Source: Zoogloea ramigera (GTDB lineage: Bacteria > Pseudomonadota > Gammaproteobacteria > Burkholderiales > Rhodocyclaceae). Taken from it: DNA of 64,000 bases. The stretch is taken from NCBI RefSeq assembly GCF_006539865.1, contig NZ_BJNV01000015.1, positions 1 to 64,000 of the forward strand, given 5' to 3'. Within the stretch, counting starts at the first letter, position 1. Each line of letters starts with the position of its first letter. Positions 32,695-56,334 of the stretch are shown one piece after another. The notes under the pieces are model-generated. The model did no database searches, was not told where the DNA came from, and saw nothing but the letters and a program-made list of their open reading frames with translations. Position numbers and translations under genes: made by a program.

Positions 32695-33603
32695 ATGAGC
32701 AATCTCCCAGGCCTGAAGCGCTGGCTGCCCGCGTTGGCCCTCGTCGTGCTGTCGTGCACCTGGGGTTACACCTGGGTGATGGTCAAGCAGGCGCTGGAGT
32801 ACGCCTCGCCGTTTTCGCTGGCGGCCCAGCGGGCGGTGGGCGGCGCGCTGGCGCTGGTGCTGGCGGTGCGCCTTACGGGGCGGTCGATGGCCCTGGTGGC
32901 GCCGCGGATGACGCTGCTGCTGGGCTTGATCCAGGTGTCCGGCTTCACGATCCTGCAGACCTCGGCGCTGGTCGAGGGCGGGCCGGGCAAGACCTCGGTG
33001 CTGATCTTCACGATGCCGATCTGGACCCTGCTGATGTCGTGGCCGCTGCTCGGTGAGCGCGTCCAGGGCCGCCAGTGGCTGGCGGCGGTCAGCACCCTCG
33101 GCGGGCTGCTGCTGATCATCGAGCCGTGGAACATGCAGACCAGCCTGGCCAGCAAGCTGCTCGGCCTGTCGGCGGCGCTGTGCTGGGCGGTCGGGACGAT
33201 CCTCACCAAGCGCCTGCGCCAGGCCCACCGGGTCGACCTGCTGGTGCTCACCATGTGGCAGATGATCTTCGGCGCGCTGCCGCTCTTGCTGATGATGGAG
33301 CTGGCGCCGGGCCGGGCCACCAACTGGACGCCCGATTACCTGCTGATGCTCACCTTTCTGTCGGTCGCCAGCATCGCCCTGTGCTGGTGGCTGTGGGGCT
33401 GGATCCTCAACCGCGTGCCGGCCTGGGAGGCCAGCCTGTCGGTGCTCGGCACGCCGGTGGTGGCGATCCTGTCGTCGCGCCTCACGCTGGGCGAGGCCTT
33501 CAAGCCGAGCGAGGTGGCCGGCATCGTGCTGATCGGCGGCGGGCTGGCGCTGTTGTCGCTGTTCGGCTGGCTGGCGAGCCGCCGCAGCGGGGCCGGGGGC
33601 TGA
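32695..33603 (+). CDS. EamA/DMT family transporter
   Basis: 302 residues with ten membrane helices in two EamA repeats (SCTWGYTWVMVKQAL in the first; the second starts near residue 155 with LLGLSAALCWAVGTI). These carriers usually export amino acids or other metabolites. It follows the ankyrin-like gene by 36 bp. Confidence 0.87.
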   Translation: MSNLPGLKRWLPALALVVLSCTWGYTWVMVKQALEYASPFSLAAQRAVGGALALVLAVRLTGRSMALVAPRMTLLLGLIQVSGFTILQTSALVEGGPGKTSVLIFTMPIWTLLMSWPLLGERVQGRQWLAAVSTLGGLLLIIEPWNMQTSLASKLLGLSAALCWAVGTILTKRLRQAHRVDLLVLTMWQMIFGALPLLLMMELAPGRATNWTPDYLLMLTFLSVASIALCWWLWGWILNRVPAWEASLSVLGTPVVAILSSRLTLGEAFKPSEVAGIVLIGGGLALLSLFGWLASRRSGAGG

Positions 33604-35458: not shown

Positions 35459-35860
35459 CTAGAAGCTGAGGGTCCGCCAGGCCGGGTCGAGGGTTCGCCC
35501 GATGAAGGCCGCAGCGCCCGCGTGGCCGGCCAGGCCGGGGATCAATTCATCCTCGCCCACGCCGTGGCTCGCCAGGGCCGTCGGGCAGACAAACAGCTTT
35601 GCGCCAAAGCCGACGGCCTCGCGGCGGAAGTCGGCCACCGACTTGCCGCTGCCCGCAGCGGCCTGCAGGGTTTCGGCGACGCCCCGGCGGAGCAGCTCGA
35701 CCGAGCGGGCGGTGAAATACATCTCCACCTCCACGTCCATCGCCGCTGCCGCCGCGGCGAAGTAGAAGGGCGTCGCGCAGAGCTCCGGCCGGCCCGGGTC
35801 GGCAGCCCACACCAGAATGGCCAGCTTGTCGGCAGGGGGTGCCGGCGCCTCAGAAATCAC
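35459..35860 (-). CDS. DsrE-family protein
   Basis: 133 residues with the DsrE/F-like alpha/beta fold: AILVWAADPGRPELCATPFYFAAAAAAMDVEVEMYFT and the C-terminal LFVCPTALASHGV, where a conserved Cys (FVCPT) sits at the usual persulfide-carrying position. DsrE-type proteins carry sulfur, and some related ones are linked to selenium metabolism. Its start overlaps the GcvH-like gene by 11 bp, at the end of the selenium module. Confidence 0.78.
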   Translation of the reverse strand: MISEAPAPPADKLAILVWAADPGRPELCATPFYFAAAAAAMDVEVEMYFTARSVELLRRGVAETLQAAAGSGKSVADFRREAVGFGAKLFVCPTALASHGVGEDELIPGLAGHAGAAAFIGRTLDPAWRTLSF

Positions 35861-36326
35861 GGTTGTCCTCGTGGAACAGCGGCGCCGAGAAGTCGGCCAG
35901 ATCCCGGAAGGCGTAGCGGTCCATGATCTTTTCGATCTCCGGCCGGGCTTCGGGCCACGGCAGCAGCACGCCCGGGGGGATCTCGCCGCTGGGTTGCAGC
36001 ACCACCAGCCAGGCGCCGAAGGGTTCGCGGTTCATGCGGCGGGCGGAGGGGTCGAGGGCCGGGTTGGCCTCGATCAGCCGCGCCGCGAAGGGCGTCTTGA
36101 CCGGAAACACCGTCTTGCCGGCCTCCAGCAGGCCGAAGCTACGGCCGGCGTCGCAGTGGGCGCCGACGGGCTTGGGCGTGAACAGCAGGATCTCGCCCGA
36201 CAGCGCGATACCGAGCTGCGTCACGCCGACGCGGTAGAGGCTATCGCCCGCGGGCACGAACCACAGGTGGCTGTCGGGGTGGTAGAGCAGGGCGTCGGGA
36301 AAGTCACAGCCGCGCAGCAGGGCCAT
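35850..36326 (-). CDS. GcvH-like (lipoyl-carrier) protein
   Basis: 158 residues resembling glycine cleavage H protein: HPDSHLWFVPAGDSLYRVGVTQLGIALSGEILLF at the front, then the lipoyl-lysine hairpin, where GLLEAGKTVFPVKTP aligns with the ESVKA lipoylation site and keeps the Lys, and IEANPAL. No gcvT or gcvP is nearby. Partner here is a DsrE-like gene, as seen with lipoate-binding proteins of sulfur metabolism. The ATG at 36326 is preferred; an upstream start at 36404 would run into tRNA-Sec. Confidence 0.78.
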   Translation of the reverse strand: MALLRGCDFPDALLYHPDSHLWFVPAGDSLYRVGVTQLGIALSGEILLFTPKPVGAHCDAGRSFGLLEAGKTVFPVKTPFAARLIEANPALDPSARRMNREPFGAWLVVLQPSGEIPPGVLLPWPEARPEIEKIMDRYAFRDLADFSAPLFHEDNRDF

Positions 36327-36375
36327 CGTGGAGTTGCCGGGATGTGTGTGCCGGAAGCTGGGGTTCCGGAAAGCG

Positions 36376-36472
36376 TGGCGGAAGAGAATGGGAGTCGAAC
36401 CCACCAGGGACCGCTTGACGGCCCCTCCTGGTTTTGAAGACCAGTCGCCCCACCGGGGGACGCATCCCTTCC
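36376..36472 (-). tRNA. selC: Selenocysteine tRNA, anticodon UCA
   Basis: 97 nt including encoded CCA. On the minus strand it begins GGAAGGGA, and the 3' part ends TCTCTTCC-G-CCA, giving the 8-bp acceptor stem peculiar to tRNA-Sec. The anticodon loop is CTTCAAA (TCA at 36435-36437), the long variable arm is GAGGGGCCGTCAAGCGGTCCC, and the T loop is GGTTCGACTCC. It lies 12 bp after the selB stop. Confidence 0.96.
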
Positions 36473-36484
36473 TTTGAAATCAAT

Positions 36485-38419
36485 TCAATTCACCGCCAGA
36501 TCGCCGCGGATGCGGTGCTGTTCGTCGTGGCCGCGGCCGAGCTTGCGAGTGTAGCCGACCCGGTCGAAGTATTCGAGCACCTGGATCGCCCGTTTACGGC
36601 CGAGGCCGGTCTGGTCGCGGAAGGCGGCGGCACGGATGCAGCCGTCGGCCTCCATCAGCTCGGCGGCGATCGCCCCGAGCTGGCGCACTGCGGCGGGGGC
36701 GTAGAACAGGTCGCGCACCACCTGGCAGGCTTCGCCGCTGGCGGCGAGCCGCTTGAGGAGTTCGCGGGTGGCGGCTTCGGGCTCGCCGAGGCGCAGCGCA
36801 ATGTCGCGCACCCAGGGCGGGTCGAAGGGTTTGTCGAGGAGCCACGGCAGCAGCGTGTCGGCGCGGCGGCGGTCGCGGGGGTCGAGCTCGAGGCGGTGGC
36901 CGGGCAGGTGCCAGGCGGCGCCGCTGCGGGCCAGGCGGCCTTCGGCGAGCCAGTGCTCCAGCCATTCGGCGAAGGCCGGCGCGGGCAGCAGCGGGGCGAT
37001 CATGCGGCGCAGGCGGTCGCGCTCGAGGCCGAGCTCGTCGGGGTGTTCGGCGTGGTGGCGGGCGAGGCGCTCTTCGACGCGACGGCCGAGGGCGTCGAGG
37101 GCGGCGAGGCCGATCAGCCAGCAGGCCTTGTCGTTGAAACGGGCCGCAGCTTCGGGCAGCAGCGCGAGGAGGGCATCTGGCCGGCGGTTTTCGGCGGCGG
37201 CGAGCTGGGCGAGGTCGACGCCCAGGGGCGAGCAGGTGAGCAGGGCCTGCAGGCGCTCCGTCGGGTCGGCGACGGCCAGGGCGGCGAGCACGGCGAGCCG
37301 GTCCGGGTGGCGGCGGTGCCGCGGCGGGCCGAAGGGGTCGAGGATGCGGCCGCCGCCGAGGGTATTGCGGCCGTGGGCGTCCCGCAGCACGACGAGGTCG
37401 CCGCGGCAGGCGTGCAGCGGTGCGTCGGCGACGAGCTGGGCGAGGCCGTGGCTGCCGGGGGCGAGGCCGGATTTTTCGAGTGCGGCGTCGAGCAGCGCAA
37501 CGCGGCCGCCGAGCTGGCGGGTGCCGTGGTGGATCTGCACGACGGCGCCATGGGCGAGGGCGCGGGGCGCGTCGGCGGCGAGGGTGAGCGCGATGTCGAG
37601 GCGCTGGGCGGGCAGCGGCGTGGATTGGCCGGTGAGCCAGTCGCCGCGGCGGATGTCATCCACCGCCAGCCCGGCGAGGTTGAGGGCGCAGCGCTGGCCG
37701 GCCTGGCCGCGGTCGGCCTTGCGGTTCTGCACGTGCAGGCTGCGCACGCGGGCGGCGGGGCCGCTTGGGGCGAGGCGCAGGCTGTCGCCCACCGCGACCT
37801 GGCCTGCGTGGACGGTGCCGGCGACGATGGTGCCGGCGCCGGCGAGGGTGAACACGCGGTCGACGGCGAGGCGGAAATCGCCCTCCGCGGCGCGGGCGGG
37901 CAGGCTGCGGGCGGCCTCGACGAGGTGGCTGCGCAGGGCGTCGACGCCTGCACCGGTGAGGGCGGACACCGGGAAGATCGGCGCGCCGGCGAGGCAGCCG
38001 CCAGCCAGCAGGGCGTGGATCTGTGCGCTCACGTCGGCGAGGCGCTCCGGGCTGGCGCGGTCGGCCTTGGTGAGGGCGACGGCGCCGCGGCGGATGCCGA
38101 GCAGATTGAGGATCTGCAGGTGTTCGCGGGTTTGCGGCATCGGGCCGTCGTCGGCGGCGACGATGAGCAGCGCGAAGTCGATGCCGCTGGCGCCGGCGAG
38201 CATGGTGGGGACGAATTTCTCGTGGCCGGGCACATCGACGAAGCCGATCACCCGGGCCGGCGAGGCGTCGCCGCCGGGCAGCGGCAGGTAGGCGTAGCCG
38301 AGCTCGATGGTGATGCCGCGGCGTTTTTCTTCGGGCAGGCGGTCGGTGTCGATGCCGGTGAGGGCGTGCACCAGGGTCGTCTTGCCGTGGTCGATGTGGC
38401 CGGCGGTGCCGATCAGCAT
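36485..38419 (-). CDS. selB: Selenocysteine-specific elongation factor SelB
   Basis: 644 residues. The GTPase part starts [22 protein letters not shown] (P-loop residues 7-15), with DVPGHEKF and TKAD motifs. Domains II and III are followed by four winged helices, which bind the SECIS hairpin. It brings Sec-tRNA to the ribosome at programmed UGA codons. It overlaps the end of selA by 7 bp. Confidence 0.97.
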
Positions 38420-39855
38420 GGGGCGAACTCCGCGAGCTGGGCCAGGAAGCGCGCCTCGTCGGCGGGCGGCAGGCAGCGCAGGTCGAGGTGCAGGGCCTTG
38501 TCGGCGATGCGCCCGATGACCGGCACCGGTAGGCCGCGCAGGGCGGCTTCGAGCTTGCCGAGCACGCCGCTGCCGCGCCCGACCGGGCGGAACACCAGCC
38601 CGGCCGAGGGCAGGCGATCGACGGGCAGGCTGCCGGAGCCGATCTGCGACAGCATGGGTTCTATCGTGACCGTGAGGGGCCAGCCGGCCAGGGCCTGGGC
38701 GATGGGGGTGCGCAGGCGCTCGGCCTGGGCGAGCATGGCGTCGCGGGGGCGGGTGAGGAGCTGCAGCGTGGCGAGGCGTTCGGGCAGACGGTCGGGGTCG
38801 CGGTAGAGGCGTAGCACGGCCTCGAGGGCGGCGAGGGTGATCTTGCCGACCCGCAGGGCGCGCTTGAGGGGGTTCTTCTTGATCTTGCCGATGAGGTCGG
38901 CGCGGCCGACCAGGATGCCGGCCTGGGGGCCGCCGAGCAGCTTGTCGCCGGAGAAGGTGACGAGGTCGGCGCCGTTGGCGATGGCTTCGGCCGGCGTGGG
39001 TTCGTGGGGCAGCCCCCAGCGGGCGAGGTCGGTGAGGGTGCCGCTGCCGAGGTCTTCGACAAAGGGCAGGCCGTGGGCGTGGGCGATGCGGGCGAGTTCG
39101 GCCTGGTCGACGCTGGCGGTGAAGCCTTCGATGGCGTAGTTGCTGGTGTGTACCTTCATCAACAGGCCGGTGCGCGGGCCGATGGCGGCTTCGAAATCCC
39201 GTGCGTGGCTGCGGTTGGTGCAGCCCACTTCGACGAGCCGGGCGCCCGCGCGCTGCATGATGTCGGGCACCCGGAAGGCGCCGCCGATCTCGACCAGCTC
39301 GCCCCGCGAGACGATGACCTCCTTGCGCTGGGCGAGGGTGTTGAGGAGCAAAAAGACCGCCGCGGCGTTGTTGTTGACGACGGTGGCGGCTTCGGCGCCG
39401 GTGAGCTCCTGCAGCAGTTCATTGACCACGTCGTCCCGATCGCCGCGGCCGCCGCTCTCCACGTCGTATTCGAGGGCGCAGGGCGCGCGGGCGGCTTCGA
39501 CCATCGCGGCGATGGCTTCTTCGGGCAGCACGGCGCGGCCGAGGTTGGTGTGTAGCACGGTGCCGCTGAGGTTGAAAACGGGCTTGAGCCGCGGCGCGGC
39601 GCGGGCGGCGAGGCGGGCTTCGGCGCTGGCGAGCAGGGCGGCGGAGCTGGGCGCCGGCTGGCCGAGGCCTATCGCCTGGCGGGCGTCGGCCAGGGTTTCG
39701 CGGAGCACCTGGGTGACCTCGACGCGCCCGTGGCGGTCGACGAGGGCGGGGGCGGCGCCGAGCAGGCGGTCGAGGCTCGGCAGGGCGCGGTAGGCGGGGC
39801 TTGCGGGGGCCGGCGAGCTGCTGTCGGACGTGGTGCCATGGACCATGGACGCCAT
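38413..39855 (-). CDS. selA: L-seryl-tRNA(Sec) selenium transferase SelA
   Basis: 480 residues. The PLP enzyme converts seryl-tRNA-Sec to selenocysteyl-tRNA-Sec using selenophosphate. Motifs are [40 protein letters not shown] and the PLP lysine in [13 protein letters not shown] (near residue 304). It sits between fdhE and selB, 51 bp after fdhE's stop. Confidence 0.97.
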
Positions 39856-39906
39856 CGTGGGGGATCTCCTGGGTTTTTCGTGGTGGGTGTCGGGCTGGGG
39901 CCAGAC

Positions 39907-40836
39907 TTACGGGAGGAACAGGAAGAGGTTGCGGCCGGCGCGGTGGAAGCCGGCCTCGTCGACGAGCATGTCGAGGGCGAGGGTGGCGAGGTCGTCGGCG
40001 AAGGCGTCGACGGCGGGGTCGGTTTCCATCGAGACGATCTTGAGGCTGGCCTGGCACTCGGGGCAGGTTTCGGCCTTGACGCCGGGGTGGGCCGGGCCGG
40101 CGGCGCCTTCGAGGCCCTGGTAGGCGATGCCGCGGGTGTTCTGGCAGGGCACGCACTTGATGCGGGTGACGTGCCATTCGCAGGCGCACAGGCTGCAGGT
40201 GGCGTAGCGCACGCCATGGCCGGCGTCGCCGATGCGCACGATGCTGGCCACCGGCGGTGCGCCACAGGCGGGGCACTGGCCGCCTTCGAAGCCGGCCGGG
40301 ATGTCGCTGGTGGCGAGCCCGAGGGCGCGGGAGGCCCACAAGACCTGCAGGCTGGCGCCGATGAGCGGGGCGAGGGCGAGTTCGATGGGGTTGGAGAGGT
40401 CTTCGTCGCCGCGCAGGATGGCGCGGGCGAGGGCGGCGAGGCGCTCTTGAGGGAAGTCGGGGAGGGCCGCGATGGCGTTCTGGAGACCGGCCGGGGCGTG
40501 GGGCACGACGGCGGTGGCGAGGTCGTGGAGCACGCTCGTCCAGTCGGCCGGGAGCTGTGCGCCGTGGGCGTCGAGGGGCGGCATGCCGTGCTGGCGGCAG
40601 CGGCGGAGCTGGGCTTCATCCGGCGGGGCGGTGGGGCCGAGGCGGTCGAGCAGGGTTTGCTGGGCGTCGGCGAGGCGGGCCGCGAAGGCGAGGAAGTCGG
40701 CCATCGCGTGGCCTTCCGCAAGTTTGCGCAGGCGCTCGGCCCGCCCGGCGAAGACGTGGGGCGAGGGCAGCCGGTTGGGGCTGGCGTCGGGGGCACCCTG
40801 GGTGGCGATCTCTTCGGGGCTGAGGAGGGTGGGCAT
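39907..40836 (-). CDS. fdhE: Formate dehydrogenase accessory protein FdhE
   Basis: 309 residues. Four CxxC pairs in the C-terminal half (CPAC, CSLC, CVPC, CPEC) form the two rubredoxin-like iron sites of FdhE, which is needed for maturation of exported respiratory formate dehydrogenases. It follows fdnI by 63 bp, where it is normally found. Confidence 0.95.
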   Translation of the reverse strand: MPTLLSPEEIATQGAPDASPNRLPSPHVFAGRAERLRKLAEGHAMADFLAFAARLADAQQTLLDRLGPTAPPDEAQLRRCRQHGMPPLDAHGAQLPADWTSVLHDLATAVVPHAPAGLQNAIAALPDFPQERLAALARAILRGDEDLSNPIELALAPLIGASLQVLWASRALGLATSDIPAGFEGGQCPACGAPPVASIVRIGDAGHGVRYATCSLCACEWHVTRIKCVPCQNTRGIAYQGLEGAAGPAHPGVKAETCPECQASLKIVSMETDPAVDAFADDLATLALDMLVDEAGFHRAGRNLFLFLP

Positions 40837-40899
40837 GTTTGCTGGGTTTCCTGTGGGGGCGGGGTTTCGAGGGGCGGACGAATCCGCCCCTCGTGGTGC

Positions 40900-41526
40900 T
40901 TACTTACCGGTCATCTGCTTGTACCAGGCTCGGTGGTGCTGCTTGGCCCAGGCGCGGGTGACGGTGCCGTAGAGCATCGCCCGGATGGTGCCGCGCACCC
41001 AGATGGCGGCGTACACATGGACGATGATCGCGGCGATCATCAGCGCGGCGAACACCGCGTGGAGCAGGGCGCCCAGGCGGACCACGCCGATCGGGAAGCT
41101 GGCCGAGAAGTAAGCCCGCCAGATCACGATGCCCGACACGAACAACACCAGCATGGCGACGCCGAGGAACCAGAACAGCAGCTTCTGCCCCCCGTTGTAC
41201 TTGCCCATCTCCGGCATGTTGTGGTCGTCGCCGTTGACCATCTCCTTGGCCCGCTTCACCCATTCCCAGTCGGCCTCGCGCATGCGGTTGAGGCCCTGGA
41301 AGCGGAAGAACATCACCACGAAGAACAGCATCATCACGACCCCGATGAAGGGGTGCAGGATGCGCGTCCAGGTGCCGCCGCCGAAGAGCATGGTGAGTGG
41401 GAACAGCGCCGGGTGGAACAGGGACAGCCCCGAGAGCGCGAGCAGGATGAAGCAGATGCCCGTGACCCAGTGGTTGGCCCGCTCCGAGGCGGTGTAGCGT
41501 TGCAGATCATGCGGATCGCGGATCAT
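40900..41526 (-). CDS. fdnI: Formate dehydrogenase gamma subunit (cytochrome b556)
   Basis: 208 residues with four membrane helices. Heme-ligand histidines are in [23 protein letters not shown] and [21 protein letters not shown]. It passes electrons from the Fe-S subunit to quinone. Its start overlaps the fdnH stop (ATGA), so translation is coupled. Whether it is Fdn- or Fdo-like cannot be told. Confidence 0.95.
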
Positions 41527-42419
41527 TTTTCGCCCTCCAGTTCGCGCTCGACTTCGGCCTCGATCTCCTTGGACACTTCGTTCGGGCCCTTCATCACGTA
41601 GTGGAACAGGCCGCCCAGCGCCGCGGCGGCCATGCCGGCCATCGCGAGGGGTTTGGCGACGCTCTTCCAGAGGGTGACGGTGGGCGCGATCGTCGGGTCG
41701 GCCGGAAGGCCGCTGTACAGCGCGGGCTTGTCGGCGTGGTTGAGCACGTACATGACGTGGGTGCCACCCACGCCGGCCGGGTCGTAGAGGCCGGCGTTCT
41801 TGAAGCCGCGCTCCTTGAGCTCGGTGACGCGCTCCGCGGCGAGCTCCTGCATGTCGACCTTGGAGCCGAAGCTGATGCTGCCGGTCGGGCAGACCTTGAC
41901 GCACGCCGGCTCGAGCCCGACCGCGACGCGATCGGAGCACAGCGTGCATTTGTAGGCCTTGCTGTCCTTCTGCGAGATGCGCGGGACGTTGAACGGGCAG
42001 CCGCTCACGCAGTAGCCGCAGCCGATGCAGTTTTCCTGGTGGAAATCCACGATCCCGTTGGCGTACTTGATGATGGCGCCCGGTGCCGGGCAGGCCTTGA
42101 GGCAGCCCGGGTCCTCGCAGTGCATGCAGCCGTCCTTGCGGATCAGCCACTCGAGGCCGCGCTCTTCGGTCTCGACCTCCGCGTAGCGCATCACCGTCCA
42201 GCTCTGGTCGGTCATGTCCCGCGGGTTGTCGTAGGTGCCGGCGCAGGTGCCGACCTCGTCACGCAGGTCGTTCCACTGCATGCACGCCACCTGGCAGGCC
42301 TTGCAGCCGATGCACTTGGAGACGTCGATGAGTTTGGCGACCTCGAGGGTCTTGCGCGCCTGGGGCGATTCGGTGGTGGTGGCCGAGCGCTTGGCGATGT
42401 CCAGTGATTGCAATGCCAT
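41523..42419 (-). CDS. fdnH: Formate dehydrogenase beta subunit (four 4Fe-4S)
   Basis: 298 residues. Four ferredoxin-type cysteine clusters are seen: [35 protein letters not shown], and CTLC followed by CVKVC. A single C-terminal membrane helix (near 250-272) anchors it facing the periplasm. It moves electrons from FdnG to FdnI. It lies 10 bp after fdnG. Confidence 0.97.
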
Positions 42420-42429
42420 GGCGGTCTCC

Positions 42430-45400
42430 TCAGGCTTTCTCGACGTTGACGAGGAAGGACTTGAACTCCGGCGTCTGGGTGTTCGCGTCTCCGACGAAGG
42501 GTGTCAGGGTGTTGGTGATGAAGCCGTTCTTGGCCACACCCTTGAAGCCCCAGTGGAGCGGAATCCCGACGTGGTGCACCGTTTTCCCGTCCACCTGCAG
42601 CGGCTTGATGCGCTTGGTGACCACCGCCACCGCCTTGATGTAGCCGCGGTTGGAGCTCACCTTGACCTTGTCGCCGGCCTTGATGCCCTTCTCGGCCGCC
42701 AGCGCCTCGCCGATCTCGACGAACTGCTCGGGCTGGGTGATGGCGTTGGACTCGACGTGCTTGGTCCAGTAGTGGAAGTGCTCGGTGAGCCGGTAGGTGG
42801 TGGCCGCGTAGGGGAAATCCTTGGCGGTGCCGAAGGCTTCCATGTCGCCCTTGAAGACCCGCGCGGCCGGGTTGGAGATGGCCTTGGGGTTGTTGGGGTG
42901 CATGGGGTTGGTGCCGATCGGCGTCTCGAAGGGCTCGTAGTGCTCGGGGAAGGGGCCTTCGTTCATCATGCCGCGGGCAAAGAAACGCGCGACGCCCTCG
43001 GGGTTCATGATGAAGGGGCCCATGCCGTCTTCGGGGGCGGAGTCCGCCTTGAAGTCGGGCACGTCGGAGCCCACCCACTTGCTCTGGGCGGCGTCCCACC
43101 AGACCTGCTTGCGCTTGGCGTCCCAGGGCTTGCCGGACGGGTCGGCGGCGGCGCGGTTGTAGAGGATGCGCCGGTTGGCCGGCCAGGCGAAGGCCCAGCC
43201 GAGGGTCTGGCCGTTGTGCCAGGGGTCGGCGGTGTCGCGCCGCGCCATCATGTTGCCCTTTTCGGTCCAGGCGCCGGAGAAGATCCAGCAACCGCAGGCG
43301 GTGCTGCCGTCGTCCTTGAGCTGGGCGAAACCGTCGAGCAGCTCGCCGGCCTTCTTGACGAGCTTGGTCGGGTCCTTGGCGTCGAACTGGTCGGCCAGGG
43401 CCTTGCCGTTGTACTCCTTGGCGAGCTCCTCGGGCGAGGGTTCGTGGGGGAGCTTGTAGGCCCAGGCGAGGTTGAGGATGGGGTCGGGGAAGGCACCGCC
43501 GTCCTTCTTGTACATCTCGCGCAGGCGCAGGAACAGGCCGGCCATGATCTCGGGGTCGGTCTTGGCCTCGCCCGGCGCGTCGGCGCCCTTCCAGTGCCAC
43601 TGCAGCCAGCGGCCGGAGTTGACGATCGCGCCGTCTTCTTCGGCGAAGCAGGTGGTCGGCAGGCGGAACACCGTGGTCTGGATCTTGGCCGGGTCCACGT
43701 CGTTGAACTCGCCGTGGTTCTGCCAGAACTCGGAGGTTTCGGTGGCCAGCGGGTCCATGATGACGAGGAACTTCAGTTTGGACAGCGCCGCGCTCACCTT
43801 GGCCTTGTTGGGGAAGGAGTTGAGCGGGTTGAAGCCCTGGGCGAAATAGCCGGTCATCTTGCCCTGGTGCATCAGCTCGAAAACCTGCAGCACGTCGTAG
43901 GTTTTATCGAGCTTTGGCAGGTAGTCGAAGGCCCAGTTGTTGTCCTTGGTGGCGGCGGCGCCGTACCAGGCCTTCATCAGGCTGACGTGGAACTTGCCGT
44001 AGTTCTGCCAGTACGACAGCTGCCCCGGCCGCATGGGCTTGGGCGCGCGCTTGGCGATGTAGGCGTCGTAGTCGGTCTCCTTCTCGCCGGGCAGCGTCAT
44101 GTAGCCGGGCAGCAGGTTGGACAGCAGCCCGAGGTCGGTGAGGCCCTGGATGTTGGAGTGGCCGCGCAGGGCATTCACGCCGCCGCCGGCGCGCCCGATG
44201 TTGCCGAGCAGCAGCTGCACCATCGCCGCGGTGCGGATGATCTGCGAGCCGGTGCTGTGCTGGGTCCAGCCGAGGGCGTAGAGGATGGTCATCACCCGGT
44301 CGGGGGTGTGCGTCGAGGCGAGCATCTCGGCTACCTGCAGGAACTTGTCCCTGGGCGTGCCGCAGATCTTCTCGACCATCTCGGGCGTATAGCGGGCGAA
44401 GTGGGCCTTCAGCAGGTTCCAGACGCAGCGGGGGTTTTCGAGGGTCGGGTCGGTTTTAACGTAACCGTCCTCACCCGTCTGGTATTCCCAGCCGGCCTTG
44501 TCGTACTTGCGCTTTTCGGCGTCGTAGCCCGAGAAGAAGCCATCGGCGAAGGCGAATTCATCCTTCACGAGGTAGCTCATGTCGGTGTAGGACTTGATGT
44601 AGTCCATGTGCACCTTGTTGCCGGCGATCAGGTAGTTGATCACCCCGCCCAGGAAGGCGATGTCGGTGCCGGTGCGGATGGGCGCGTAGAGGTCGGCCAG
44701 CGCGGCAGAGCGCGTGAAGCGCGGGTCGACGACAATCAGCCGGGCCTTGTTTTTCGCCTTTGCTTCGGTCACCCATTTGAAGCCACAGGGATGGGCTTCG
44801 GCAGCGTTGCCGCCCATGATCAGCACCACGTCCGCATTCTTGATGTCGGACCAGTGGTTGGTCATGGCGCCGCGGCCGTACGTCGGGGCAAGACTTGCCA
44901 CCGTCGGGCCGTGTCAGACACGCGCTTGGTTGTCGAAAGCGAGCATTCCCAGGCTGCGCACCACCTTGTGGGTGATGTAGCCTGCTTCGTTGCTGGAGGC
45001 GGAGGCGGCGAGGAAGCCGGTGGTGAGCCAGCGGTTCACCGTCACGCCGTCGGCGTTCTTGGCGATGAAGTTGGCGTCGCGGTCTTCCTTGACCAGCTTG
45101 GCGATGCGGGTGAAGGCCTCGTCCCAGCTGATGCGCTTCCATTCCTTGGTGCCGGGTTCGCGCACTTCCGGGTACTTGAGCCGGTTCTTGCTATGCACGA
45201 AGTCGAGCAGACCGGCGCCCTTCGGGCACAGGCTGCCGCGGTTGACCGGGTGGTCCGGGTCGCCCTCGATGTGGAAGATCTCGGCGTGGGCGTTCTTGGC
45301 CTTGTCGCCCAGGCTATACATGATGATGCCGCACCCGACCGAACAATACGGGCAGGTGTTGCGGGTTTCGGTGCTGCGGGCGAGCTTGAAAGTGCGGACC

Positions 45401-45501
45401 TCGGCCAGCGCGGCGGTGGGCGAGAAGCCCATCGCGACGAGACTCGATCCGGTCAAGCCCCCGGCGGCCACCTTGAAGAACTGGCGCCGTGAGAGTTGCA
45501 T
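42430..45501 (-). CDS. fdnG: Selenocysteine-containing formate dehydrogenase alpha subunit
   Basis: 1023 residues read through an in-frame UGA at 44914-44916, codon 196, the same position as Sec196 of E. coli FdnG; the context V-U-H-G-P-T-V is conserved. The Tat signal is [12 protein letters not shown], and the 4Fe-4S site is CPYCSVGCG with a later Cys in SLCPKG. The rest is the molybdopterin-guanine-dinucleotide oxidoreductase fold. It oxidises formate in the periplasm. Read naively the UGA splits the gene in two. A GGAGGAGG sequence precedes the ATG. First gene of the minus-strand selenium module. Confidence 0.97.
44872..44916 (-). promoter_or_regulatory. SECIS-like hairpin with the Sec UGA codon
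   Basis: Immediately after the UGA the minus strand can fold: CGGCC pairs with GGCCG at the base, and GGCA/TGCC closes an apical AGTCT loop, resembling the AGGTCT loop bound by SelB in E. coli fdhF/fdnG. Confidence 0.75.
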
Positions 45502-45551
45502 GTTTCGTCTTCCTCCTCCGGTTGTTGTGACAAACGTGCGTAGGTGAGCCT

Positions 45552-45567
45552 TGCAAGCCTCGCGCCA
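45552..45567 (-). promoter_or_regulatory. Sigma-54 promoter of fdnG
   Basis: The minus strand reads TGGCGCGAGGCTTGCA, matching the -24/-12 consensus TGGCACG-N4-TTGCA except for one base, with GG and GC at the required spacing. It predicts a start near 45541 and a 40-nt leader. Confidence 0.75.
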
Positions 45568-45621
45568 GCCTTGCGCGCCTTCCAAAACAGTGGTTTGGCG
45601 GCGCTGCCGGGTGTTTTTTCG

Positions 45622-45654
45622 GGACATTTTGTCCATCTCGACGACAGAATGTCC
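45622..45654. promoter_or_regulatory. Two dyads 20 bp apart, candidate enhancer for fdnG
   Basis: GGACATTTTGTCC (45622-45634, perfect) and CGACAGAATGTCC (45642-45654, imperfect at the outer base) have centres exactly 20 bp apart, about 87 and 107 bp upstream of the predicted start site. This is where sigma-54 activators usually bind. Confidence 0.6.
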
Positions 45655-45843
45655 ATCTGCGGTGCAGCAAGCTCCCTCGCCAGGCGGGGAGGCCCTGCCG
45701 CGCCTGTTCACTCCGACCCCTTCCGTCGTTATAGTCCGCTTCGCGGTCTGTGCACCGCTTGAGTCTTTTCCATTAAGCCGGGGCCGCTCTCCCTCGTCCC
45801 GGCGGCTGGTGTCGCGCTGCGACGCCGTTTTGAGGAGTAGTCG

Positions 45844-46737
45844 ATGACTTCCGTGCCCACTTCGAGGCGCGCGCTGCTGCGTGCCTGCGCCCGCCTTTCC
45901 GCCGTCTCCGCCCTTGCCGCCATCGGTGCCCTGCCCCTCGCCGCCCAGGCCGAGGAGGTGCTGCGGGTGTCGGCGATCCCCGACGAGGCGCCCACCGAGC
46001 TGCAGCGCAAGTTCGCCCCGCTCGGCGCCTACCTGGAAGCCGAGACCGGGATGAAGGTCAGCTTTGTGCCGGTCACCGACTACGCGGCGGTGGTCGAGGC
46101 GCTGGCGACGCGCAAGATCGACATGGCCTGGCTGGGCGGCTTCACCTTCGTGCAGGCCAGCCTCCGCACCAAGGGCACCGCGGTGCCGCTGGTGCAGCGG
46201 GCCGAGGACGCGAAGTTCACCTCGAAGTTCATCACCGCCAGCGAGGGCATCAAGGGCTTTGCCGACCTGAAGGGCAAGACCTTCGCCTTCGGCGCGCCGT
46301 CGTCGACGTCGGGCCACCTGATGCCGCGCTACTTCCTCGGCCAGGAAGGCATCAACCCCGACAAGGATTTCAAGAACACCGCCTTCTCGGGCGCCCACGA
46401 CGCCACCGTGGCCTTCGTGCAGGCCGGCAAGGTGGACGCCGGGGTGCTCAACGCCTCGGTGTGGGACAAGCTGGTCGAGCAGAAGAAGGTGGATACCGCC
46501 AAGGTTCGCGTCCTTGCCACCACGCCGCCCTACTTCGACTACAACTGGACGGTGCGCGGCGACCTCGACCCGAAGATCCAGGCCAGGCTGCGCGACGCCT
46601 TCCTGAAGCTCGACGCGGCCAACCCGGCCCACAAGGAGATCATGGCGCTGCAGCGGGCCAGCAAGTTCATCCCGACCAAGGCCGAGAACTACAAGGGCAT
46701 CGAGTCGGCGGCCCACGCGGCGGGCTTGCTGAGGTAA
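45844..46737 (+). CDS. Putative selenate ABC transporter substrate-binding protein (PhnD-like)
   Basis: 297 residues. Twin-arginine-like or Sec signal peptide (cut after AQA), then a PhnD-type periplasmic binding fold starting VLRVSAIPDEAPTELQRKFAPLGAYLEAETGMKV. The sequence resembles the group annotated as putative selenate binders, usually beside selenium genes. The location, divergent from a Sec-dependent enzyme and its decoding genes, supports selenium oxyanion uptake. Phosphonate or phosphite remain possible. Confidence 0.85.
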   Translation: MTSVPTSRRALLRACARLSAVSALAAIGALPLAAQAEEVLRVSAIPDEAPTELQRKFAPLGAYLEAETGMKVSFVPVTDYAAVVEALATRKIDMAWLGGFTFVQASLRTKGTAVPLVQRAEDAKFTSKFITASEGIKGFADLKGKTFAFGAPSSTSGHLMPRYFLGQEGINPDKDFKNTAFSGAHDATVAFVQAGKVDAGVLNASVWDKLVEQKKVDTAKVRVLATTPPYFDYNWTVRGDLDPKIQARLRDAFLKLDAANPAHKEIMALQRASKFIPTKAENYKGIESAAHAAGLLR

Positions 46738-46813
46738 GGGGGGCGGCGGCCGGGGCGGAGTGTTCCGCGCCGGCTGCGTTCCCTTCCCGGCCTTGCGGTA
46801 AGGAATTCATACA

Positions 46814-47644
46814 ATGAGCTTCACGCTCGAAGGCGTTGGCTTCACCCACGCCAATGGCCACCGTGCGCTCGCCGGCGTCGACCTGCGGGTGGCGGCGGGC
46901 GAGCGGGTGGCCCTGATCGGTGCCTCGGGGGCCGGCAAGACCACCCTGCTGCGCGTGCTGGCGGCCAGCCTGCGGCCGGGCAGCGGGCGGGTCGAGCTGC
47001 TCGGCAGCGCGCCGTGGGATGCTGCTCCGCGGGATCTGCGCCGGCTGCGGGCGCGCATCGGAGTGGTCCACCAGGCGCCGCCGATCCCGCCGCGGCAGCG
47101 GGTCGTCACCGCGGTGCTGGCCGGGCGGCTGGGCCAGTGGCCGCTGTGGAAATCCCTCGCCTCGCTGGTGCTGCCCGTCGACCCCGAAGGCGCCCGCCGC
47201 GAGCTGGCCCGGCTCGACCTGGCCGAGCGCCTGTATGACCGCTGCGACTGCCTCTCCGGTGGCCAGCTGCAGCGGGTCGCGCTGGCCCGGGTGCTTTACC
47301 AGCAGCCCGATCTGCTGCTCGCCGACGAGCCTGTCTCGGCGATGGACCCGGCCCTCTCCGAACTCACCGTGGCGCTGCTCAACGACGAAGCCCGCCGCCG
47401 CGGCGTGACCCTGGTGGCGAGCCTGCACGCAGTGGATCTGGCGCTGCGCCATTTCCCGCGGGTGGTGGGCGTGAAGGACGGGGCCATTCTCTTCGACCTG
47501 CCGGCGGGCCAGGTGAGCGAAGCTCTGCTGCGCGAGCTTTACGCCGCCGAGGGCGGGCTGCCGCTGGCCGGCTCGCCGCTGCCTTCTCCCTCGCCCGAAG
47601 CCGGCCCGGCGGCCGGCACCCTGCCGCCGCTGCGCTGCGCATGA
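46814..47644 (+). CDS. ABC importer ATP-binding protein (PhnC-like)
   Basis: 276 residues: Walker [10 protein letters not shown] (36-44), signature [13 protein letters not shown], Walker [14 protein letters not shown] and the His switch [11 protein letters not shown]. It powers the importer encoded around it and overlaps the first permease gene by 4 bp. The substrate is inferred from the binding protein. Confidence 0.9.
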
Positions 47645-48462
47645 GCGCCACCCTCCGCGATCCCGCCGCGCTGCCGCGCCTGGGCTGGACGCTCACGGCG
47701 CTGATGCTGCTGTGGCCGCTGCTGCAGCTCGCCGATTTCCGCCCGGCAGCGCTGTTCGAGCCGGGTAACCTGGCGGCGATGGGCCACTTTCTGGCCGGCT
47801 TCCTGCCCCTCGAGACCTCGCCGGACTTCCTCGCGCTGCTCGGCCGCGCCACCGTGGATACGCTGGCGATGGCCACCGCCGGCATCGCGCTGGCGGTGCT
47901 GCTGGCGGTGCCACTGGGCGTGGTGCTCACCCGCAGCCTGTCGGTCTCGGCCATCGGGCCGGGGCGCGGAGGCTGGGTCGGCCAAGCCGTGCGTGGTGCG
48001 GCGCGGATGCTGCTGGCGGTGCTGCGGGGCGTACCGGAGCTGGTGTGGGCGCTGCTCTTCGTGCGGGTCTTCGGCCTTGGCCCGGCGGCCGGGGTGCTGG
48101 CGCTGGGCATCACCTACGGCGGGATGCTCGGCAAGGTGTATGGCGAGATCCTCGAATCCACCGACGCGCGGCCCGCCCGCAGCCTGCTCGAGGCCGGCAG
48201 CGGGCGGCTGGCGGCGCTGGCCTACGGGCTGCTGCCCAACGCGGGCCAGGAGCTGCTCTCCTACACCGTGTATCGCTGGGAATGCGCGGTGCGGGCCTCG
48301 GTGGTGATGGGCTTCGTCGGTGCCGGCGGCCTCGGGCAGCTCATGGACCAGTCGATGAAGATGCTCAACGGCGGCGAGGCGGCGACCATCCTGGCCACCT
48401 TCCTGGTGCTGGTGCTGGCCGCCGACGGCGCGAGCGAAGCCCTGCGGCGGAGGATGGCATGA
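47641..48462 (+). CDS. ABC importer permease 1 (PhnE-like)
   Basis: 273 residues with about six membrane helices. The EAA coupling loop appears around [24 protein letters not shown], and [21 protein letters not shown] is the C-terminal permease motif of the PhnE type. ATGA overlaps on both sides tie it to the ATPase and the second permease. Confidence 0.88.
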
Positions 48463-49238
48463 GCCGCCGGGCCGGGGTTTCGGGCGGCGCGGTGCTTGCC
48501 GTGGGCCTGCTGCTGGCGGCGGTGGCGGGCAGCTTCGCGTGGCTGGACATGCCCCTCGCGGCCCTGTTCACCGCGACGGCGGTGGAGGAGGCGGGCGGCT
48601 TCGTGGCGCGCTTCTTCCCGCCCGATCTGTCGGCCGGTTTTCTGGCCAAGGTGGCCTGGGCGGGCCTGGAGACGCTGGCGATCTCGCTGCTCAGCACTCT
48701 TCTGGCGGCCCTCGGTGGCGCCGTGCTGGCGTTGCCGGCGGCGGGGCGCCACGGGCTCGCCGGACGCCACGCGGCGCGCTTCGTGCTCAATTTGTTGCGT
48801 TCGGTGCCCGAGCTGGTGTGGGCGACCCTGATGGTGCTGGCCGCCGGCCTCGGCCCCTTCGCCGGCACCCTGGCGCTGGCGCTGCACACCACCGGGGTGC
48901 TCGGCCGCCTGTTTGCCGAGGCGCTGGAGAACAGCCCGCCCACGCCGGCCGAGGCGCTGGCGGGCGGTGGTGCGCCGGCCCTCGTCACCTTCTTGTATGG
49001 CACGCTGCCGCTGGTGGCGCCCCAGTGGCTGGCCTACGCCCTGTATCGCTGGGAGATGAACATCCGCATGGCGGCGATCCTGGGTTTCGTCGGCGCCGGA
49101 GGGCTCGGGGCGCTGCTTTACTACAGCCTGTCGCTGTTCCAGGAAGCCCAGGCGAGCACCGTGATCATCGCGATGCTGGCGATGGCCGTGGCGGTGGATG
49201 GGGCCAGCGCCTGGCTGAGGCGCCGCGCCGGGGCTTGA
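48459..49238 (+). CDS. ABC importer permease 2 (PhnE-like)
   Basis: 259 residues. It repeats the pattern of permease 1 ([44 protein letters not shown]), so the channel is probably a heterodimer of two related permeases that arose by duplication. The ATG at 48459 overlaps the previous stop. Confidence 0.88.
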   Translation: MSRRAGVSGGAVLAVGLLLAAVAGSFAWLDMPLAALFTATAVEEAGGFVARFFPPDLSAGFLAKVAWAGLETLAISLLSTLLAALGGAVLALPAAGRHGLAGRHAARFVLNLLRSVPELVWATLMVLAAGLGPFAGTLALALHTTGVLGRLFAEALENSPPTPAEALAGGGAPALVTFLYGTLPLVAPQWLAYALYRWEMNIRMAAILGFVGAGGLGALLYYSLSLFQEAQASTVIIAMLAMAVAVDGASAWLRRRAGA

Positions 49239-49356: not shown

Positions 49357-49450
49357 TCAATGTAAAAAGGCAAACCGCTCGGAAACGGCGGGACGCAAAG
49401 CCATCGGACCTCACTCCCGGCAAGGGACAGGTGGCCGGGTTGCACGTTGG
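49357..49450 (+). ncRNA. Class I cyclic-di-GMP riboswitch (GEMM-I)
   Basis: The conserved core is plain: GGCAAACC, a P2 stem with a GAAA tetraloop, GGGACGCAAAGCC, and ACAGGTGGCCGGG at the 3' side. The P1 stem pairs CAATGT (49358-49363) with ACGTTG (49444-49449). It lies 130 bp upstream of a secreted-protein gene on the same strand. The expression platform is not obvious; no poly-T terminator follows, so control may be of translation. Confidence 0.92.
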
Positions 49451-50139: not shown

Positions 50140-50721
50140 TTAGGCGCGCTTGCGGCGGGCGATGCCGAGGCCGGCGAGGCCCAGCGCGGCGAGGGCCAGC
50201 GAGGTGGGCTCGGGCACTGCGGTGCCAGGGGTTGCGTTGCTGATGGTCAGCGTATAGCTGGCGTTGGCGGCGTACGGGGTCTGGGCGTCCAGGTAAGCTT
50301 CCATGCCGGCGAGGGTGCCACTGCCGCCGGTCACGTAGCTGCCGGAGTTGTAGCCGTCGGTGTTGACGAACGCGCCGCCGTTGGCTTGGGCGTAGCCATA
50401 GATGGACTGGCAGCAATAGCTCACCAGCAGCGAGTAGTTGCCCGCCGACAGGAACTGGGTGAGGTGCGGGTTCAGGCTGTTGCTGTCGTCGTTCGACATC
50501 AGGTGGGCGCCCGCAGCGTTGAACAGCGAGAAGGTCGCGTCGCCGTAGCCGCCGGTGAACTGCATGTCGACCACGCCGCCGACGGTGTTGAAGCCGAGGA
50601 CCGCATAGCCGGCCGCGTTGAAGTTGCCAGCGGCGGAGATGTCGGCGTGGGCGGCGCCGAAGCCCGCGGAAAGGGCCAGCGCCAGGGCGGTGCCGGACAG
50701 GAGCTTGTTGATCTTTTTCAT
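50140..50721 (-). CDS. PEP-CTERM sorting domain protein
   Basis: 193 residues. Signal peptide (cut after AHA), a beta-rich middle with FNAAGAHL and SAGNYSLLV like other PEP-CTERM proteins, then VPEPTSLALAALGLAGLG and a basic end (RRKRA). It is cut and probably delivered to the surface by an exosortase encoded elsewhere, often as part of an exopolysaccharide matrix. The ATG at 50721 is set by the signal peptide. A sigma-54 promoter lies upstream. Confidence 0.88.
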   Translation of the reverse strand: MKKINKLLSGTALALALSAGFGAAHADISAAGNFNAAGYAVLGFNTVGGVVDMQFTGGYGDATFSLFNAAGAHLMSNDDSNSLNPHLTQFLSAGNYSLLVSYCCQSIYGYAQANGGAFVNTDGYNSGSYVTGGSGTLAGMEAYLDAQTPYAANASYTLTISNATPGTAVPEPTSLALAALGLAGLGIARRKRA

Positions 50722-50780
50722 GATGATTCTCTCTTTTCCGTTGTCGTTACTTGCGTGCAAGTGCTGCTCTCAGCAGACAA

Positions 50781-50796
50781 AGCAAAATAAGTGCCA
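50781..50796 (-). promoter_or_regulatory. Sigma-54 promoter of the PEP-CTERM gene
   Basis: The minus strand reads TGGCACTTATTTTGCT, an excellent match to TGGCACG-N4-TTGCW with only the seventh base off. The predicted start is near 50770, giving a leader of about 50 nt. Confidence 0.8.
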
Positions 50797-52861: not shown

Positions 52862-54969
52862 TCACGCCTGTGCCGGCGGGGTGCTCCAGCGCGCCGCAAA
52901 CCCCGGCGCGGTGGGGGCGTCCGCGTAGCGGGCTTCGCTGCGCAGGTGCACCGTGAAGCAGGCGCCCTGGCCGGGCTGGCTGGTGACGCTGATGTGGCCG
53001 CCGTAGCGCTCGACGATGGCGTAGCTGATCGACAGGCCGAGGCCGGTGCCGGAGCCCTTTTTGGTGGTGAAGAAGGGATCGAAGATGCGCGACAGGTCTT
53101 CGGCGGCGATGCCCTGCCCGGTGTCGCAGACGGCGATCTCGGCGCCGATGCGGCGGCCTTCCTCCAGCCAGTCGCGGCTCGTCAGGGTGAGCCGGCCGCC
53201 GTCGGGCATGGCCTGGAGGGCATTCACGATGAGGTTGATGAGCACCTGCTGGAGCTCGCTGAGGTTCACCTCGACGCGGCAGCCGGCGCTGTTGTCGACG
53301 CGCACCTCGATCTGGCGGCGCTCGAGGTTGTGGCGCGTCAGCACCAGGCAGTCGGCGAGGGCCTGGGCGGGGTCGACGCCCTCGGTGTAGCCGGCGAACT
53401 CGCCCGGCCGCGCAAACTGCAGCAGCTTGGTGACGATCAGCCAGATGCGGTGGGTCTGCTCGTGGATCAGGCGAATCTCCTCGCGTACCGGGGCGGCGGC
53501 GGGGCCGAGGATTTCCTGCAGCACGTCGAGGTTGCCCTGGATGACGGCCACCGGGTTGTTGATCTCGTGGGCGACGCCGGCGGTGAGCTCGCCGATGGCG
53601 GCGAGTTTTTCGGTCATCGCCAGGTGGCGGCGGGCCTGGTCGAGGGTGGCGTTGGCTTCTTCGAGCTCGTGGGTGCGCTCGGCCACCTTGCGGTCGAGCT
53701 CGTCGCCCCAGCGCTGGAGCTCCATGCGGCGGGCGGCCAGGTTGTCGAGGAGCTCGTCGAAGGCGGCGGCGAGCTGGCCGATCTCGTCGCGGCTGGCGAC
53801 CTGCCCGACCCGCGCGTCGTGATCGCCGGTGCCGACCCGGCGGATCGTCGCGCTGAGCTTCTCGAGCGGCTTGAAGACGCTGCGCGCCCACGCCAGCGAC
53901 AGCACGCAGCCGGCCACGCTGACGGTGACGAAGATGGCGAAGAGGGTCAGCAGCGCGCCCTGCATGGCGTCGCTGAAGGGCGCCTCGAGAAAGCCGACGT
54001 AGAGCATCCCGACCCGTTCGCCGTGGCTGTCCAGCACCGGCTCGTAGCCGGACACGTAGTAGTCGTTCACCACGAAGGCGGTGTCGAGCCACACCTTGCC
54101 TTCGTCCAGCACGTGCTCGCGCACCACCTGGGAGGCGCGGGTGCCGAGGGCGCGCTCGCCGGCGAACAGGCGCACGTTGGTGGCGATGCGGGTGTCGCCG
54201 AGGAACAGGGTGGCGGTGCCCTTGCTGCCCAGCGGCAGGGTGCCGTCGCGGTAGATGATGGCGTTGAGGCGGTCCACCAGCTCGCTGTTGCCGTTGAGCA
54301 GCACGCCGCCTTCGAGCACCGCCAGCGGGCGCCGGGCGTCGTTGTGCACCGGCGTGGCGGAGTGGATCAGGAGGCCGCGGGTTTCCTCGTTGCGCGGGTC
54401 GGGCGTGGCGTTGGGGGTGGGCACCAGGGCCAGCCGGGCGCGCTCGGCCAGGCGCGGGTCGATGGCGGCCAGATGGTCGGCGTCGAACACGTCGATGGCG
54501 GTGCTGCCTTCGCCCGCCAGCGCGGCGTCGACCACCGGCCAGCGGCTGCGCGCCGCGTGGGGGCCAGCAGCCGGCAGCGCGTGGCTGGGCGGGCTGGCGA
54601 GGATGCGGCCGTCGGGGCCGAGGAGGAACAGGAAATCCAGCCCGGCCTGCCGGCGGGCGTCTTCGACGTAGGCGGCGAGGTGCTCCGGCCTGCCGTCGGC
54701 CATGGCCTTGGCGAGGCGCTGGCTGCCGGCGAGGGCGGCGAGGTCGACGGCGACGGTCTGGCGCATCCGGCCGAAGTATTCGTGGGCGGTGACCAGGTCG
54801 GAGCCGACCTTGTAGTTCACCAGCCGGTGGTAGCCCTCGTTGCCCCACAGCCACACCAGCCCGAGCAGGATCGGCACGCCGAGGAAGAGCGGCGCCAGCA
54901 CCATCGCCAGCAGCTTGGCGCGCACCGAGCGGCGCAGGCGCCCGGCGAGGGTGCCCAGGCTTTGGCGGA

Positions 54970-54985
<16 letters not shown>
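52862..54985 (-). CDS. Sensor histidine kinase with periplasmic Cache-type domain
   Basis: 707 residues. Membrane helix at about 26-48, a large periplasmic region (50-340) resembling double Cache sensors, second helix near 345-367, HAMP, coiled coil, and kinase core with the phospho-His in GVAHEINNPV, N box and the G boxes DTGQGI and GTGLGLSIS. The periplasmic sensor suits small organic ligands. It overlaps its response regulator by 16 bp. It is not PrsK, which lacks this periplasmic domain. Confidence 0.9.

Positions 54986-56334
<1,349 letters not shown>

Follow-up and report, generated by a model that had tools for sequence, protein, structure and literature searches.

A putative selenium importer with a structured mRNA leader beside a formate-dehydrogenase/selenocysteine operon in a Zoogloea-like genome

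The window analysed here is a stretch of 64,000 nucleotides from a Zoogloea-like genome (own assembly G000), and it carries a four-gene importer of the PhnD type, whose binding protein is 86-98% identical to that of named Zoogloea loci, divergent from an operon for a selenocysteine-containing formate dehydrogenase and for selenocysteine (Sec) synthesis. With a probability of about 0.7, we read these four genes as a dedicated selenium importer that serves selenium use generally, and whose mRNA leader turns its translation off. The importer and its leader comprise the following features:

45740-45846, plus strand: structured 5' leader RNA of the importer (start codon at 45844 included)
45844-46737, plus strand: substrate-binding protein of the importer (TIGR04553, 387.1 bits; cut-off 250)
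46814-47644, plus strand: PhnC-like ATPase of the importer
47641-48462, plus strand: PhnE-like permease 1
48459-49238, plus strand: PhnE-like permease 2 (start codon taken from the translation)

In the proposed mechanism, the binding protein would use a pocket of the PhnD1/PtxB type to capture a selenium oxyanion, with hydrogen selenite as the most likely one, and the ATPase and the two permeases would carry it inward. After its reduction, SelD would make selenophosphate, which would be used by SelA for the selenocysteine of FdnG and by MnmH for selenouridine in tRNA; because the SelD product feeds both enzymes, the importer probably serves selenium use in general and not Sec alone. At high levels of selenium or of a selenium metabolite, the loop of a leader hairpin (P3) would pair with the Shine-Dalgarno sequence, and importer translation is probably switched off by this RNA fold.

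The association with selenium genes was followed in a close-kin set of 80 loci, all of them in named genomes and corresponding to the 80 best among 212 matches of the binding protein; in this set, the binding protein, the ATPase and the first permease are always present and the second permease in 73. The search for selA covered the genomes of 40 of these loci (37 of the 64 without neighbouring Sec or fdn genes, and three with adjacent ones), and the search for selD the same 40 importer genomes and the own genome. A selD gene above cut-off was found in 41/41 importer genomes; selA was present in 13 and absent in 24 of the 37 genomes without neighbouring Sec genes, and present in all three of the adjacent cases. 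Two broader samples were scored for the importer as TIGR04553 above 250 bits, i.e. 321 genomes drawn evenly from the class and 200 genomes from the order. In the class sample, selD is present in 13/13 importer genomes vs 59/308 others (Fisher 1.5e-9); in the order sample, any of selD, selA or mnmH is present in 42/45 importer genomes vs 104/155 others, and selA is missing from 22 of these 45. selD accompanies the importer more regularly than selA does; the importer is not confined to Sec users, yet Sec users are over-represented among its carriers.

Physical linkage was counted within the ordinary 8-kb flank of 54 importer loci from the order and class samples (four fetches were widened toward known matches: G147 and G287 for selD, G423 and G542 for selA). 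selD lies within 8 kb in 13/54 loci, where about 0.2 would be expected at one selD per 4 Mb, and Sec/fdn genes in 2/54. The linked selD cases represent several gene orders and 11 families by tool labels, with selD upstream on the same strand, divergent, or in a fused FAD-SelD form; two more cases, at distances of 9.4 and 12.9 kb, came from widened fetches. A Sphaerotilus plasmid carries the single run mnmH-ATPase-permease-binding protein-selD, and at one Variovorax locus (L218) the fdn and sel genes, tRNA-Sec, selD, importer and mnmH all occur together. Taken with the close-kin loci discussed below, physical linkage of the importer with selD is mixed.

The nearest solved relatives of the binding protein, whose structure model has a predicted local distance difference test (pLDDT) score of 91.9, are picocyanobacterial PhnD1 (7s6g, 41% identical; 5lq5, 35%) and PtxB. 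In Prochlorococcus PhnD, phosphite is contacted by Y46, S126, T127, S128, H158, D205 and the capping Y206, which points toward the phosphite hydrogen (PMC5700983). These contacts correspond to Y80, S154, T155, S156, H185, D232 and Y233 of the window protein; Y80, S154, T155, S156, H185 (STS-H motif included) and the capping Y233 are invariant in 41/41 importer members, the D232 position is D in 34 and N in seven of them, and the second-line positions N203 and D47 are N in 32 and D in 33. Besides its three oxygens, hydrogen selenite carries a lone pair at the place of that hydrogen, where selenate has a fourth oxygen. Because its pyramidal shape suits the capping tyrosine and selenate carries the fourth oxygen, selenite is the better guess, and the pocket suggests a pyramidal oxyanion such as selenite rather than selenate as the substrate. 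PhnD-like proteins of this group are indeed annotated as putative selenate binders, as the original prediction had it (TIGR04553, 'putative selenate ABC transporter substrate-binding protein'; ABC, ATP-binding cassette), but 'selenate' is only a database name, and the pocket argues for selenite.

The leader was found through strong conservation upstream of the importer in a comparison of Zoogloea loci. In the window, it consists of a P1 hairpin (45743-45758), the P3 hairpin (45777-45803; loop 45785-45795) and the Shine-Dalgarno sequence (45832-45837), with a TATAGT box of the -10 type directly upstream, and it is missing the variable middle hairpin of its relatives; the latter show a TATAAT-like box, P1 (GCGGU..ACCGC), in most cases the variable hairpin, P3, and the Shine-Dalgarno sequence. 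The leaders span 94-140 nucleotides (nt) and contain two to three hairpins; conservation extends to unpaired nucleotides around P1 and P3, and P3 is mostly flanked by UAAG on the 5' and GGYU on the 3' side. Since single-sequence folding energies are not decisive (z of -0.4 to -3.5), the case for a structured leader rests on covariation. In an alignment of 71 sequences (69 distinct) to the model, which is thereby fitted to the structure, 98.7% of cells are paired, both partners change in 9 of 13 pairs (105 cells vs 25 in shuffles), and the covariation score is 0.438 vs 0.241 in shuffles, a value reached by 0/500 shuffles; the best slid structure gave 75.7% pairing and a covariation of 0.188.

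A model of the leader, R1, was built from 49 importer leaders including that of the window, whose own match is thus by construction. R1 finds the leader in 71/80 close-kin loci (E up to 0.1), once each and 5' of the binding-protein gene; 70 of these matches reach 48 bits or more, and one (L058) is weak with 24 bits. Of the 71 leaders, 24 are outside the training rows, several of them being close kin of training rows. At the own selD/mnmH locus and at ten selD loci (L087-L096), R1 gave chance-level matches only (best 16.5 bits, E 0.37, L087); no Rfam 15 family matches the leader, the nearest riboswitch being a PreQ1-III noise hit (13.2 bits vs a cut-off of 63), and a distant search of two leaders against plasmids by blastn gave no match. 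The leader RNA belongs to one group of betaproteobacterial importers, and is kept in 21/24 selA-less genomes.

Complementarity exists between the P3 loop and the Shine-Dalgarno region and tracks sequence changes: UCCG-CGGA becomes CCCG-CGGG (L030, L049, L062) or ACUCCC-GGGAGU (L068). It was assessed with pattern-selected leaders from the window and 134 loci (67 found, 63 unique, one too short), of which 52 of 62 were parsed; their mean longest loop-tail match is 4.25 nt vs 4.00 nt with tails reassigned (3/1000 as high), and 3.43 nt with the loop letters shuffled (0/1000 as high). Because ten leaders have no parsed P3, including five with the AAGGAAUCC tail, the complementarity lends moderate support to the predicted pairing.

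The same RNA occurs before a second gene. In 39 of 40 Sec loci searched (L208 left out), R1 matches an importer-free place in six, i.e. L204, L205, L209, L211 and L212 with 41-48 bits (E 3e-7 or better) and L196 with 29.5 bits (E 2e-4). In every case the match runs up to the start codon of a flavoprotein gene; the flavoproteins resemble one another and have a twin-arginine-like start (Pfam matches for L212: FCSD_central and TAT signal, flavocytochrome-c sulfide dehydrogenase type), and in all six loci this gene sits between selA and selB; the genome of L196 (G545) contains selA, selD and mnmH and no importer above cut-off. Translational control is favoured because the RNA in L204 lies inside the operon, starting 12 bases past the selA stop. 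Weak matches were obtained at the end of L206 (20.5 bits, probably a truncated importer leader) and in L192 (14.4 bits). The place between selA and selB is held in other loci by a cation-efflux-like protein (L187, from sequence only), a transglutaminase-like protein (L222, by Pfam) or, in Variovorax paradoxus, a second PhnD-like binding protein (L085:4591-5451, plus strand).

From these sequence patterns, the leader may be a selenium riboswitch of about 95-140 nt (for selenophosphate, selenide or selenite) that would shut translation of the importer and of the Sec-operon flavoprotein through loop-Shine-Dalgarno pairing; we hold this more specific proposal tentatively, at somewhat less than an even chance. 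A selenium metabolite as the ligand is the simplest hypothesis.

The neighbouring operon is located on the minus strand, and is listed here in the order of transcription:

42430-45501, minus strand: fdnG, selenocysteine formate dehydrogenase (single in-frame TGA/UGA, codon 196, 44914-44916)
44861-44919, minus strand: SECIS_3 element in fdnG, over the TGA (81.2 bits)
41523-42419, minus strand: fdnH
40900-41526, minus strand: fdnI, cytochrome b subunit (start deduced by reading frame)
39907-40836, minus strand: fdhE (TIGR01562, 266 bits)
38413-39855, minus strand: selA (TIGR00474, 571 bits)
36485-38419, minus strand: selB (TIGR00475, 436 bits)
36376-36472, minus strand: tRNA-Sec (Rfam, 72.2 bits)
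35850-36326, minus strand: GcvH-like (lipoate-binding type) protein, 3' of tRNA-Sec, lipoyl-motif lysine kept
35459-35860, minus strand: DsrE-like protein with an invariant Cys92

The coordinates and gene calls of the original prediction hold for fdnG with its UGA codon 196, fdnHI, fdhE, selA, selB and tRNA-Sec on the minus strand; the GcvH-like and DsrE-like genes within the same span had gone unnamed. The four importer genes and their divergence from fdnG were also described correctly, whereas their order on the plus strand is not D-E-E-C but D-C-E-E, i.e. the binding protein, the PhnC-like ATPase and the two PhnE-like permeases. The term 'self-contained' does not apply to this block, as selD and mnmH are located on another contig (G000:C7:6722-8654). 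The base composition of the window reveals no island border. A c-di-GMP-I riboswitch (49359-49447, plus strand, 59.2 bits) is predicted just 3' of the importer.

Several observations weigh against a selenium importer with a translational off-switch. The pocket residues are the same as in phosphite/phosphate binders, and the binding protein would likely bind phosphite or phosphate in vitro; fold and pocket match the phosphite/phosphate-binding PhnD1 and PtxB, and picocyanobacterial PhnD1 has been interpreted as a transporter of phosphate (PMC10284923). The four genes might be an importer of phosphite, phosphate or phosphonate that stands near selenium genes by chance, a reading that we consider unlikely. 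The selD signal may be partly unspecific, for a weak selD excess is also seen in relatives below the cut-off (class sample, 32/120 vs 27/188 without a match, p 0.011), although the link is far stronger above it (13/13). In the order sample, the selD excess is modest (40/45 importer genomes vs 103/155 others, p 0.002), with selD being common (143/200), and five of the 45 importer genomes have no selD match: G362 contains selA and mnmH, G556 contains mnmH, and G517, G528 and G553 (85-95% complete, 370-680 contigs) show no match for selD, selA or mnmH. Of 13 plasmid records that contain a related protein, ten are from Rhodobacterales (37-41% identical, same database name), and no selenium gene is among the genes listed within 6 kb in three Rhodobacterales plasmids inspected, in an incomplete table of genes. 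On the other hand, chance proximity accords poorly with selD linkage in many gene orders, and the partners of phosphorus import are rare: PhnJ occurs in 5/41 importer genomes, a PtxD-like protein (48% identity or more) in 7/41, the own genome gave no match for PhnJ or PtxD (E up to 1e-30), and in the 134 importer loci the dehydrogenase matches numbered only two (27 and 35% identity), with no PtxD-like protein of more than 35% identity. The phosphonate reading (PhnCDE of a carbon-phosphorus (C-P) lyase system) is weak, with PhnJ absent from the own genome and found in only five of the 41; so is the phosphite (ptx) reading, with PtxD absent from the own genome and unlinked in the 134 loci.

The original prediction had proposed instead a selenate importer dedicated to Sec, forming one mobile or co-regulated module with the fdn and sel genes, and this we regard as quite improbable. 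It gains from the order sample, in which selA is present in 23/45 importer genomes vs 33/155 others (p 0.00015), with odds as high for selA as for selD, and in which selA goes with the importer also within the 143 selD-positive genomes (22/40 vs 33/103, p 0.010); moreover, the fetched flanks (up to 10 kb) contain fdnG and/or selA/selB in 16/80 close-kin loci and selD in only 5/80 (L060 in part, L082, L084, L085, L086). The 8-kb counts in the order and class samples go the opposite way (2/54 and 13/54), selD is located elsewhere in the own genome, 24/37 genomes with a non-adjacent importer are without selA, and the pocket would accommodate three oxygens below the tyrosine cap better than a tetrahedral XO4. 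Furthermore, six Zoogloea loci (L012, L013, L014, L018, L020, L022), in whose genomes selA was not found, keep the importer and leader in the absence of the Sec block, and there an EamA transporter gene (homologue of window 32695-33603) precedes the importer. The gene order around this site also differs (a NYN gene before EamA in L012-L014), hence it is not a clean empty site; the pattern would fit either gain or loss of the Sec block beside an importer and leader that were retained. Movement of the whole block as one unit finds no support in these six loci or in the Sec/fdn flanks of only 16/80. The notion that the importer feeds selenium to the Sec pathway retains its first half, selenium import, while the importer is hardly part of one Sec module; its frequency in genomes without selA, proposed as a check, gives a mixed answer, as 24/37 and 22/45 lack selA but importer and selA are associated. 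As for the RNA, R1 did not find the leader in 9/80 close-kin loci (L059, L060, L061, L072, L077, L082, L084, L085, L086), and it is present in only 3/54 sampled loci, of which L137 is itself a training row and the other two, L131 and L182, match rows L050 and L046 of the training set. That the leader is a regulatory-protein site or a passive translation-control fold, and not a metabolite riboswitch, is a real possibility, if not quite an even bet: the RNA is short, with its two to three hairpins, and ligand binding is a prediction. SelB (with Sec-tRNA) as the binder is unlikely, given the 21/24 selA-less genomes that keep the leader, and the conserved unpaired nucleotides at P1 and P3 and the reuse before an unrelated sel-operon gene are aptamer-like. 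A general selenium importer with an mRNA off-switch remains the reading that we prefer.

Other neighbours may be connected with the Sec operon. GcvH-like and DsrE-like genes occur 3' of tRNA-Sec in 8/40 and 9/40 Sec loci, respectively, and a GcvH-like gene lies within 8 kb downstream of selA in at least 9/56 selA genomes of the order sample. Cys92 of the DsrE-like protein is invariant in eight aligned rows, as is the lysine of the lipoyl motif of the GcvH-like protein in seven. The two proteins are a possible persulfide/perselenide carrier pair for Sec synthesis. Features that may belong to a control circuit are:

45552-45567, minus strand: sigma-54-like promoter site, 5' end about 66 bases upstream of fdnG
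52892-54958, minus strand: Cache-domain sensor histidine kinase
54976-56322, minus strand: NtrC-type (sigma-54 activator) response regulator

A sigma-54-like site was found in 19/42 fdnG upstream rows (several rows being the same DNA twice) vs 54/4000 random stretches, with a pattern that was chosen after the site in the window had been seen; it is present in 8/9 distinct Zoogloea rows. Across the whole window, such sites are at chance level (2 found, 2.35 expected), and an exact match to the pattern at 50781-50796 (minus strand) precedes a PEP-CTERM protein gene (50140-50760) by about 20 bases. A Cache kinase and NtrC-type regulator are near the importer in 18/80 close-kin loci, in two different positions (the regulator alone in L083). 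Together, the site and this kinase/regulator pair might control the formate dehydrogenase/Sec operon.

According to a 2026 review, a specific high-affinity transport system for selenium is yet to be identified in prokaryotes (PMC13188914), and in a 2024 study of Methanococcus maripaludis selenium sensing is described as unknown, with selenophosphate mentioned as a possible cue (PMC11097638); the phrase 'selenate ABC transporter' occurs in PMC3781023 and PMC13077682. Our literature search, with most subscription journals outside its scope, retrieved no description of this importer and, among the papers listed, no selenium riboswitch by title or start of abstract. The locus gives a concrete importer, a reason to try selenite first, and a conserved RNA that may be a sensor, and the selA-less relatives offer a setting for a Sec-independent role of the importer.

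Among known systems, the closest is NCBIfam TIGR04553 (a hypothetical equivalog), of which the window protein is a full-length member far above cut-off; name and substrate of the family are predictions, and here its link with selD is more consistent than that with selA, and the substrate proposed is selenite in place of selenate. Translation-controlling riboswitches of the preQ1-II and SAM-II types form a pseudoknot with the Shine-Dalgarno sequence; the leader likewise shows loop-Shine-Dalgarno complementarity that tracks sequence changes, and differs in that it matches none of the Rfam 15 families. In the sHdr sulfur-oxidation pathway, a lipoate-binding protein is paired with a DsrE-type partner. 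The GcvH-like protein of the window is of the same family as LbpA of that pathway (PMC6067878), with the lipoyl-motif lysine kept, and differs in its location directly after tRNA-Sec. The YedE/YedF selenium candidates were likewise proposed by comparative genomics as transport or redox genes (PMC5322559), and comprise a membrane protein unrelated to the importer; 'ABC' and 'phosphonate' are absent from the main text of that paper. The role of picocyanobacterial PhnD1 has been called paradoxical (PMC10284923), and since no word starting with 'selen' occurs in the main text of that report, selenite binding by PhnD1 seems untried there. PhnD1 (7s6g, 5lq5) and PtxB share with the importer protein the fold, up to 41% identity, the oxyanion contacts and the capping tyrosine; unlike the three aligned solved chains of the PhnD1/PtxB type, the importer family has near-invariant E121 (40/41) and F176 (39/41), and in the genome it is accompanied by selD/mnmH instead of ptxD or phosphonate genes.

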